A DNA stretch of 64,000 bases from Mycetohabitans endofungorum (GTDB lineage: Bacteria; Pseudomonadota; Gammaproteobacteria; Burkholderiales; Burkholderiaceae), in the NCBI RefSeq assembly GCF_002927045.1, contig NZ_PRDW01000011.1, positions 1 to 64,000 on the forward strand. The letters run 5' to 3'. Below are positions 56,548 to 58,816 of the stretch, one piece after another (within the stretch, counting starts at the first letter, position 1; the number at the start of each line of letters is the position of its first letter). The notes beneath the pieces were generated by a model. It saw only the letters and a list, made by a program, of their open reading frames with translations. It had not been told where the DNA came from and did not search any database. Position numbers and translations under genes: made by a program.

Positions 56548-56882
56548 GAGGCGCGACGAACGCCGAGTGTGCTACAGAACTCGATTCACGTTGGGCAGCG
56601 TGGTATGGCGCACCGATCGACGGCGAGCAAGTGCGTACACTGATGGCCGAGACGCGTTCGTTCCTGCAGGAATTGCCCGTGTCGACACAGGCCAACAACG
56701 TGCAGTTGCTCGAGTACATGTCGGCCAACCGGCATGAGCAGCTCACCGCCGCGCATGCCCCATATTCGACGGGGAGTCCGTCGAGCCTGCCCTATGATCC
56801 GCAGATCAATTACGAAGGGCGTACCGACAGCGTCACCAACCAGTCCCAGGTCGATGATCTATTGACCAGTCTTGGGCTCTGA
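56548..56882 (+). pseudogene. Unrecognised C-terminal gene remnant
   Basis: The frame is open from a stop at about 56547 and has no strong start. It reads ELDSRWAAWYGAPIDGEQVR, then ETRSFLQELPVSTQANNVQL, and ends DSVTNQSQVDDLLTSLGL. It looks like the tail of a helical secreted or effector-like protein, but no family can be named. It ends 3 bases before the DUF2844 frame. Confidence 0.35.
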
Positions 56883-56884
56883 GA

Positions 56885-57229
56885 TTGAGTAAAAGATGGG
56901 CGCGCAAATGCGTCGCCGCGTACGATTGCAACCCATTGGAACAGGAACGGGGCACCGTGGTGCGCGAGTACATTGCCGATGGCACCGTATTCGGCATCGC
57001 CTGGCCCGGCCCTCAAATGCCCGAGATGCGCACGTTGCTGGGTACCTACTTCCCACAGTACGTTAGCGACATCCAGGCGCAACGCCGTGAACAGGGCGGC
57101 CACGGGCCGGTGTGGATGCGCAGCGGCGAGCTAGTCGTACATTCGGGCAGGCACATGGGCGACTTCAGCGGGCAAGCCTTCCTACCGCGGGCCTTGCCGG
57201 CCGGCATGACCGAAGCGGATATCCGCTGA
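56885..57229 (+). CDS. DUF2844 protein, N-terminus probably lost
   Basis: A 114-residue frame with only a TTG start. From residue 23 on it matches the DUF2844 domain: GTVVREYIADGTVFGIAWPG, LLGTYFPQYVSDIQAQ, GELVVHSGRHMGDFSGQAFL. Family members normally carry a Sec signal, but here the first 22 residues (KRWARKCVAAYDCNP) have none, so the start has been damaged. The next gene follows after 16 bp. DUF2844 and DUF3443 genes are typically neighbours in Burkholderia-type bacteria, suggesting a shared envelope task. Confidence 0.7.
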   Translation: MSKRWARKCVAAYDCNPLEQERGTVVREYIADGTVFGIAWPGPQMPEMRTLLGTYFPQYVSDIQAQRREQGGHGPVWMRSGELVVHSGRHMGDFSGQAFLPRALPAGMTEADIR

Positions 57230-57245
57230 ACACAGGAGTGCTATC

Positions 57246-58463
57246 GTGACCCTAGTCAATACACGCCGCGGGCTCGCATGGCGCGCCGCGGCGCTCATGG
57301 GCGCCATAACGCTGGCCGCGTGCGGAAGCGGCGGCAATGCCAATTCGGCGGCCAGTTCTGCCCCCCTGGCAGCCAACGTTGTGCCGATCACGGTGGCGCA
57401 GGGGCTCGACCGGGTGGCCAACATCGGCACCGTGTCCGTCACCATCTGCGCGGCTGGCAACGCCGCGCAGTGCCAGACGCTTGACAACATCCAACTCGAC
57501 ACGGGTTCGTATGGCTTACGGGTGGTCGCCGCGGAATTGTCACCCACATTGCGCGGCGCGCTGCAGCAGGCCACCGTGCCCAATTCGAATGCGCCGCTTG
57601 CTTCGTGCGCGTTGTTCGCGGACGGGTATTCGTTCGGTTCGGTGCGCATTGCTGACGTGACGCTAGGCGGGCGGACCGCCAGTGCGATCCCAATCCATTT
57701 AATCGGCGATTCTAAATTTCCGACGGTGCCGTCCGACTGCGTCGTGGGTCGATCGGAGAACGCCGCGTCGGAGTTGCATTCTCGCGGCATCCTCGGTGTC
57801 GGGGCGGCGGCCGTGGATTGCGGCAACCGATGCGCGACCAATGCGGCCGCCAGTTCCTACTTCAACTGCGCGAGTGCGTCCAACTGCGTGCAAACCGTCG
57901 TGCCGCTTGCCCAACAGATCGCGAAACCGGTGGCGAACGTGCCGGTCGACAACAATGGCGTAATCGTCGATATGCCCGCAATCGGCCCCTCGGGACAGTC
58001 TTCAGTCAGCGGCACCTTGTTGCTGGGTATCGGCACCGCATCCAACAACCGGCTGGGCAGCGGTGCGATGGTATTGACCACCGATGATTCCGGTAGCTTC
58101 AGCGCGACGTACAACGGCTCGAGGATCACCGGGTTCACCGATACCGGCTCCAACGGCCTGTTCTTCACCGACGCGTCGTTGCCCGTATGCGGCTCCGGCA
58201 GCCCGTTCTATTGCCCGCCCGGCCAACAGGCCAAGCTCCTCACCGTGACGGGCGCGAATGGCGCCACCCAGGCCGTCAATCTCAACGTGGGCAATGCGTC
58301 GATGCTGCTCAGCACGCCTAATACGTTTGCGCTCAACGATTTGGCCGGACCGATGCCCCGCTACTTCGACTTAGGCATGCCGTTTTTCTATGGGCGGCGC
58401 GTGGCGGTGGCGATCAGCGGCAAGTCCACGCCATCAGGCAATGGTCCCTATGTGGCATTTTGA
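57246..58463 (+). CDS. DUF3443 lipoprotein with pepsin-like aspartic protease features
   Basis: A 405-residue lipoprotein (signal AAALMGAITLAAC, Cys26) that I assign to DUF3443. Two DTGS motifs occur: IQLDTGSYGLRV (Asp85) and FTDTGSNGLFF (Asp299). The first is followed by GILGVG (residues 181-186), and the second by YFDLGMPFFYGRRVAVAI near 373-390. This order, DTG then hydrophobic-hydrophobic-Gly in both halves, is the bilobal arrangement of A1 (pepsin-like) proteases. Cysteines at 68/76, 121/165, 192/196 and 208/214 could form disulfides. AGGAG precedes the GTG start. A membrane-anchored periplasmic protease role is inferred, not shown. Confidence 0.8.
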   Translation: MTLVNTRRGLAWRAAALMGAITLAACGSGGNANSAASSAPLAANVVPITVAQGLDRVANIGTVSVTICAAGNAAQCQTLDNIQLDTGSYGLRVVAAELSPTLRGALQQATVPNSNAPLASCALFADGYSFGSVRIADVTLGGRTASAIPIHLIGDSKFPTVPSDCVVGRSENAASELHSRGILGVGAAAVDCGNRCATNAAASSYFNCASASNCVQTVVPLAQQIAKPVANVPVDNNGVIVDMPAIGPSGQSSVSGTLLLGIGTASNNRLGSGAMVLTTDDSGSFSATYNGSRITGFTDTGSNGLFFTDASLPVCGSGSPFYCPPGQQAKLLTVTGANGATQAVNLNVGNASMLLSTPNTFALNDLAGPMPRYFDLGMPFFYGRRVAVAISGKSTPSGNGPYVAF

Positions 58464-58480
58464 CGTGATGCACTGAGTGA

Positions 58481-58508
58481 CCGGTAACCGGTAACCGGTA
58501 ACCGGTGG
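58481..58508. repeat. 7-bp tandem repeat
   Basis: CCGGTAA is repeated three times with a fourth diverged unit (CCGGTGG). The repeats overlap themselves as palindromic ACCGGT. It lies just after the DUF3443 gene; slippage could change copy number. Confidence 0.75.
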
Positions 58509-58640: not shown

Positions 58641-58816
58641 CGCGTCCAAGCTCACCGAGTACCGAGCGCCCAAGACGCTGTCGCTCCGCGACGTTGCATA
58701 GGGTGCTGCAAAGCCTGCTCGGCGAAGCCGTGCCGAGTCGCGACATGCGCATCATCGTCGAGTCACAGTCACGGCGGACAGCGACCTGGCGATGATTTCG
58801 CCCGTGGTCCGGCGTG

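Follow-up and report, generated by a model that had tools for sequence, protein, structure and literature searches.

The question raised by this locus is whether a DUF3443 lipoprotein in which the tetrapeptide DTGS occurs twice is a bilobal, pepsin-type aspartic protease held in the envelope of a bacterium. The protein is encoded in the window, by which we mean the whole stretch of 64,000 nucleotides of Mycetohabitans endofungorum that was analysed (contig NZ_PRDW01000011.1, positions 1 to 64,000 of the forward strand). We assign a probability of about 0.72 to the reading that DUF3443 is an exported, mostly lipid-anchored family with a pepsin fold, most of whose members are probably envelope aspartic endopeptidases and which works together with a second family, DUF2844.

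An initial annotation, made from the letters alone, had placed the open reading frame in DUF3443, and this assignment was borne out by the PF11925 profile, which matches residues 42–405 with 419.6 bits (cut-off 25) and an E value of 1.3e-125. No other match to the family was found in the source genome. AGGAG, which resembles a ribosome-binding site, stands directly before the GTG start, and 16 bases lie between the stop of the upstream frame and this start. The two DTGS motifs were found at residues 85–88 and 299–302, 214 residues apart as had been claimed, and the first is followed by the hydrophobic-hydrophobic-Gly element that had been pointed out (I-L-G, within GILG at residues 181–184). 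The proposed lipid anchor fits the lipobox LAAC at residues 23–26, in which Cys26 would be the anchored residue, and 70 of the 80 named relatives have a lipobox-like motif ahead of the domain, as judged by pattern match only, the other 10 being unmatched by the simple pattern used. Shortly past the stop codon lies a tandem repeat of about four units of 7 bases (58480–58506). The features of the locus are collected in Table 1.

Table 1. Features of the DUF2844-DUF3443 locus, with residue numbers of the DUF3443 protein in brackets
Feature	Position in window	Strand	Basis
cheZ relict, 3' part	56571..56879	+	tblastn with L032 CheZ residues 94-236, E 4e-24; PF04344 on 56631-56879
Truncated DUF2844 partner gene, conserved domain kept	56885..57229	+	PF11005, E 9.1e-32, from profile position 25; comparison with L112
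DUF3443 lipoprotein, predicted bilobal pepsin-like aspartic protease	57246..58463	+	GTG start, 405 aa; ORF, PF11925, model, Foldseek, VIA
Predicted signal peptide and lipobox LAAC (23-26), residues 1-26	57246..57323	+	motif position; type II signal judged by eye
First putative catalytic motif D85-T-G-S (85-88)	57498..57509	+	motif position; conservation in alignments A1 and A2
F124, candidate flap residue (place of pepsin Tyr75), turn of predicted hairpin	57615..57617	+	model secondary structure; alignment
First putative psi-loop motif G-I-L-G (181-184)	57786..57797	+	motif position; alignments
Second putative catalytic motif D299-T-G-S (299-302)	58140..58151	+	motif position; conservation in alignments A1 and A2
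Second putative psi-loop segment YFDLGMPFF (373-381), strictly D-L-G	58362..58388	+	motif position; alignments
flhA relict, short, weak	58646..58780	+	tblastn with L032 FlhA residues 526-570, E 7e-5

Residues 42–405 were modelled with AlphaFold2 on alignment A2, described below, with a mean pLDDT of 96.3 and a pTM of 0.93. When the model was compared with the PDB in Foldseek, 524 matches were obtained at E ≤ 0.001, the top one being rhizopuspepsin (2apr, E 1.5e-12), and all 50 of the matches listed are pepsin-type aspartic proteases, among them endothiapepsin, BACE1, cathepsin D, pepsin and plasmepsin. Over the whole chain, the query-normalised TM-scores of the matches listed were only moderate, at 0.49–0.59, with an rmsd of 5.6–8.9. 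A second look at Foldseek's own matches with VIA-align 2 (VIA) gave Z scores of 21.8–24.1 among the 50 matches listed, with alignments that start at model residue 1, 2 or 4 and end at 364; the Irpex lacteus proteinase 1wkr was aligned over 279 residues (Z 24.1, rmsd 3.2) and porcine pepsin 6xcy over 267 (Z 22.6). We take 2apr, 1wkr and pepsin to be members of peptidase family A1. The DUF3443 protein is thus predicted with high confidence to have a bilobal pepsin fold across the modelled chain, and the comparison with family A1 proteases, by which the initial annotation had proposed to check its reading, gave a pepsin-like fold over that whole chain and not an unrelated one. In the model a single chain forms both lobes, and D-[TS]-G-S occurs once before the middle and once in the second half.

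At the level of sequence the same kinship is hardly visible. A phmmer search of the PDB with the window protein returned no sequences at E ≤ 10, and the A2 profile likewise returned no matches. The classical pepsin model PF00026 matched 0 of the 60 A2 members at E ≤ 10, a search in which the HMMER filters drop most matches above about 0.1, and none of three proteins was named by NCBIfam at E ≤ 1. HHalign of A2 against a pepsin profile reached an E value of 0.16 at best, with the columns misplaced; this was a weak test, with a profile of 4 or 2 sequences. The model Asp_protease_2 was matched weakly and below its cut-off in 15 of the 60 A2 members at E ≤ 10 (best 3.1e-4), and in the six members inspected the match overlaps the second motif, while in alignment A1 a match to an aspartic-protease model at E ≤ 1 was obtained for only one member of 29 (Asp_protease_2, 0.012). 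One A2 member of the 60, L093, matches PE-PGRS_C over residues 37–161, in its first half (E 5.6e-6, 26.3 bits against a cut-off of 33). These sub-cut-off matches hint in the same direction as the fold. DUF3443 belongs with family A1 by its fold and not by the sequence-profile test with PF00026.

In order to follow the motifs through the family, we used two main alignments. Alignment A1 contains 29 rows obtained with the DUF3443 family profile and is free of pattern bias. Alignment A2 contains the window protein and 59 of 80 named loci, which are the best 80 of 542 confirmed; these 60 of the 81 available sequences leave out 21 named loci by choice, mostly near-duplicates, and a further set, A3, retains 57 of the 81 after removal at 90% identity. 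The locus search behind A2 used a pattern built on the segment G-x-P-F-F-x-G, so that the invariance of this segment in A2 is partly by construction. D85 is kept in 60/60 sequences of A2 and in all 28 rows of alignment A1 that have the position, and D299 in 60/60 and 28/29; the homologues therefore keep both Asp residues, as the initial annotation expected of a pepsin-like family, and a family in which the two residues vary was not what we found. Thr86, Ser88, Gly184, Gly301, Ser302 and Gly377 are each present in 60/60 members of A2, in which nine cysteines are also invariant; in alignment A1, G377 is found in 29/29 rows and F380 in 27/29. The residue two before D85, Gln in the window, is Gln in 54/60 members of A2 and in 8/29 rows of alignment A1. 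The claim of a hydrophobic-hydrophobic-Gly element after the second DTGS held only in part: the segment YFDLGMPFF is present at 373–381, and the residues before G377 form a short strand in the model, but the element reads D375-L376-G377, and Asp is not hydrophobic. Asp stands two positions ahead of G377 in 53/60 members of A2 (24/29 in alignment A1), so that the likeness to pepsin at this point is not literal. Both D-[TS]-G-[STA] motifs are intact in 51 of the 60 members of A2. G87, the Gly of the first motif, is replaced by Ala in 7/60 and by Glu in 2/60, with the Asp kept, in members from several lineages (L060, L061, L067, L070, L071, L083, L084, L097 and L104); a change or loss of activity is possible in these nine relatives. 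The motif of L008 reads DTAS, and in one paralogue (L020, 1501–2592) both catalytic motifs have been lost.

DUF3443 and the small secreted protein encoded upstream of it, DUF2844, form a near-obligate pair, which is newly described here. With the DUF2844 fragment of the window as query, matches were found at 106 of 110 loci, not all of them independent (at least L011/L079 and L012/L054 are probably the same places), always upstream of DUF3443 and on the same strand. The four loci without a match are L010, a truncated DUF3443 copy; L027, a sub-cut-off DUF3443 match that is probably no true member; the motif-less paralogue L020, which has no DUF2844 within its 1.5-kb flanks; and L015, whose catalytic motifs are kept although its 1.5-kb flank contains no partner. 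The phylum and order samples were treated as the same genome draws for both families. Among the 398 genomes of the phylum sample, an identical set of 10 passes the cut-offs of both families, and one further genome (G176) has a sub-cut-off DUF3443 match only; classical pepsin (PF00026) was found in 6/398, as against the 10/398 with DUF3443 over its cut-off. Among the 300 genomes of the order sample, 36 have a DUF3443 match, in 35 of them over the cut-off. DUF2844 was matched in 31 genomes, every one of which belongs to these 36; the remaining five are G489 and G651, G527 with a sub-cut-off match, and G596 and G680 with partial matches. Pairwise distances within the two families are correlated (42 loci, r 0.82, against at most 0.24 in 2,000 permutations), although shared ancestry of the whole locus also raises r.

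With starts chosen by scoring, most DUF2844 proteins begin with a signal-peptide-like stretch; they also have a linker, in which Ala and Ser are often abundant, and a domain about 105 residues long. A model of the domain (pLDDT 86.9, pTM 0.77) had no Foldseek match in the PDB at E ≤ 0.001, the best being 0.31, and a best VIA Z of 5.1. Because these fold matches are insignificant, any role given to DUF2844 is a guess; kinship with the DUF2874 family or with BLIP-like proteins appeared in weak Foldseek rows only and is not relied on here. Two DUF2844-DUF3443 modules stand in tandem in one genome (L137 and L139, G355:C3, about 402000–406100), which has six matches to each family. At L022 the DUF2844 match (131–430) and the DUF3443 match (1501–2601) are about 1.07 kb apart, in contrast to the close spacing elsewhere, and there may be something between them.

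The window itself carries a damaged version of this module. Judging from the relicts on either side, the locus appears to be the remnant of a lost chemotaxis or flagellar cluster around a DUF2844-DUF3443 pair. Relative to G007, a genome of the same genus with both genes intact, 372 bp are missing between two copies of a 7-bp repeat, and with this deletion the start codon and signal peptide of DUF2844 have gone. Since its partner has lost the signal peptide, the window's DUF3443 probably acts alone, or else the module is decaying. It is possible, though doubtful in our view, that this copy is a non-functional, decaying remnant of what is otherwise a protease family. The truncation of DUF2844 and the relict state of the flanking cheZ and flhA are in keeping with decay, as is the record of the genus, in which DUF3443 is matched in 3 of 8 genomes, the source genome included: the C-terminal part of the gene alone remains in G001, and G004 has no DUF3443 match. 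The dN/dS ratios also exceed those of neighbouring genes. Against G007 they are 0.229 for DUF3443 and 0.282 for the DUF2844 fragment, and two neighbours have 0.079 and 0.011; in the comparison with G001, the part of DUF3443 that both genomes keep gives 0.297, and three neighbours give 0.057, 0.048 and 0.101. These values indicate that DUF3443 is still under moderate constraint, less than its neighbours. The ratio of 0.229 is nevertheless well under 1, though the average spans time before the deletion too, and the open reading frame is uninterrupted: it keeps both motifs, and its GTG is preceded by a sequence resembling a ribosome-binding site. In G007 both genes survive intact, which likewise speaks against decay.

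A different doubt concerns the whole family, since a pepsin fold may be kept without catalysis. Some plant pepsin-like proteins have turned into inhibitors, and DUF3443 could in the same way be an envelope pseudoprotease or binding protein, which we think unlikely. The predicted flap is a hairpin of model strands 76–83 and 86–99 with F124 (model residue 83) at its turn, and Phe occupies this position in 59/60 members of A2 and in 26 of the 28 rows of alignment A1 that have the residue. F124 is probably the equivalent of pepsin Tyr75, an assignment drawn from the position of the turn. In their 2009 survey, Rawlings and Bateman state that activity had been demonstrated for no Phe75 homologue, and that rhizopuspepsin was weakened by a Tyr75Phe change (PMC2761423). 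The enzyme reading is weakened by this probable Phe flap, by the Ala or Glu in place of G87 in 9/60 members and by the one paralogue without both motifs, and the unusual D-L-G psi-loop also suits a protein without catalysis. On the other side, both Asp residues (alignments A1 and A2) and Thr86, Ser88, Gly301 and Ser302 (A2) are kept beyond what a binding surface would need. The motif-less L020 is also without DUF2844 in its 1.5-kb flanks, but the motif-bearing L015 lacks it likewise. Catalysis by DUF3443 is what we infer from the model and the conserved motifs, and the family is probably one of exported proteases within a two-gene module.

A cheZ, flhB or flhA neighbour at 45 of the 80 named loci (the best 80 of 542) raised the possibility of a flagellar role. 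Such a role is not favoured: 24 of the 80 loci stand beside a bamC-type (NlpB) gene and 11 beside neither, some of the 11 being short contigs with their neighbours outside the sequence, and full-length DUF3443 occurs in genomes of the window's genus that gave no flagellin match. The neighbour families were confirmed in Pfam for one representative each. No flagellin match was found in four of four genomes of the genus tested, two of which retain a full-length DUF3443 ORF, and in each of the four the sole FlhA-family match scores below the best copies of two comparison genomes. The only FlhB- and FlhA-family matches of the source genome lie at G000:C6 99235–102382 and are 31–35% identical to flagellar ones; they would belong to a type III secretion apparatus rather than to flagellar genes. 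The modules beside the bamC-type (NlpB/DapX) lipoprotein gene are a second type of arrangement, seen at L063 (3635–4864) and at 23 similar loci of the 80 named. Finally, a chance recurrence of DTGS in a protein with a high content, by reading, of Ser, Gly, Thr and Ala is extremely improbable and was rejected, since shuffled versions of the window protein contained at least two DTGS in 16 of 200,000 cases (at least two D[ST]G[ST] in 249 of 200,000), the family conserves the motifs, which is a stronger argument than their rarity in shuffles, and the fold match extends over the whole chain.

Set beside known aspartic proteases, the endopeptidase reading of DUF3443 finds several partial parallels. 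With peptidase family A1 (pepsin, 2apr, 1wkr) it shares the predicted bilobal single chain, two D-[TS]-G-S motifs, psi-loop Gly segments and conserved cysteines; it differs in that sequence comparison detects no similarity to PF00026 or PDB chains, and in its lipid anchor, probable Phe flap, D-L-G psi-loop and separate partner gene. The C-terminal domain of mycobacterial PecA/PE_PGRS16 (PE-PGRS_C; PDB 4EHC) is likewise an exported bacterial aspartic-protease domain with two Asp motifs, although 4EHC is absent among the 50 matches listed by Foldseek and by VIA. According to one report, PecA is an active surface protease, secreted by a type VII system, which cleaves PE_PGRS proteins as well as itself (PMC6819658); DUF3443, in contrast, is a lipoprotein of Pseudomonadota that is paired with DUF2844. 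Shewasins A and D, bacterial members of family A1 and, like PecA, relatives by fold, are also described as pepsin-type with two catalytic motifs, shewasin A having neither signal peptide nor prosegment and shewasin D, in its native form, accumulating mainly in the cytoplasm (PMC4814920), whereas for DUF3443 export and lipid anchoring are predicted. The enzymes of P. fluorescens (PMC11957791) and P. aeruginosa (PMC12239564), retropepsin-like by title and abstract, and in P. aeruginosa secreted by title, are further bacterial aspartic proteases; DUF3443 differs in having two lobes per chain. The 2009 survey listed homologues of pepsin from seven species of bacteria, and none of these homologues had a predicted signal peptide (PMC2761423). 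No paper mentioning DUF3443 or DUF2844 by name was found in the literature searched, and among papers on pepsin-like Burkholderia proteins and prokaryotic family A1, none describes DUF3443 in its title or the start of its abstract.

A possible mechanism for the putative DUF3443 protease follows that of pepsin. D85 and D299 would together activate a water molecule, while the flap hairpin with F124 at its turn would close over the substrate. Disulfides could link the conserved cysteines in the oxidising periplasm, and Cys26, lipidated and followed by a flexible linker, would hold the domain on the outer membrane. DUF2844 would most likely be a cognate regulator of DUF3443, either an inhibitor or a chaperone, or else its dedicated substrate. 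A more specific proposal is that DUF2844 restrains or helps to fold a lipid-anchored bacterial pepsin in trans, much as the covalent prosegment does in eukaryotic pepsinogens; this we hold to be rather unlikely. If it were true, exported bacterial pepsins would be widespread in the order and would have been overlooked because the sequence profiles of family A1 miss them. If DUF3443 is active, it would be a widespread pepsin of the bacterial envelope, and would provide a test case for how a pepsin may be controlled without a covalent prosegment.
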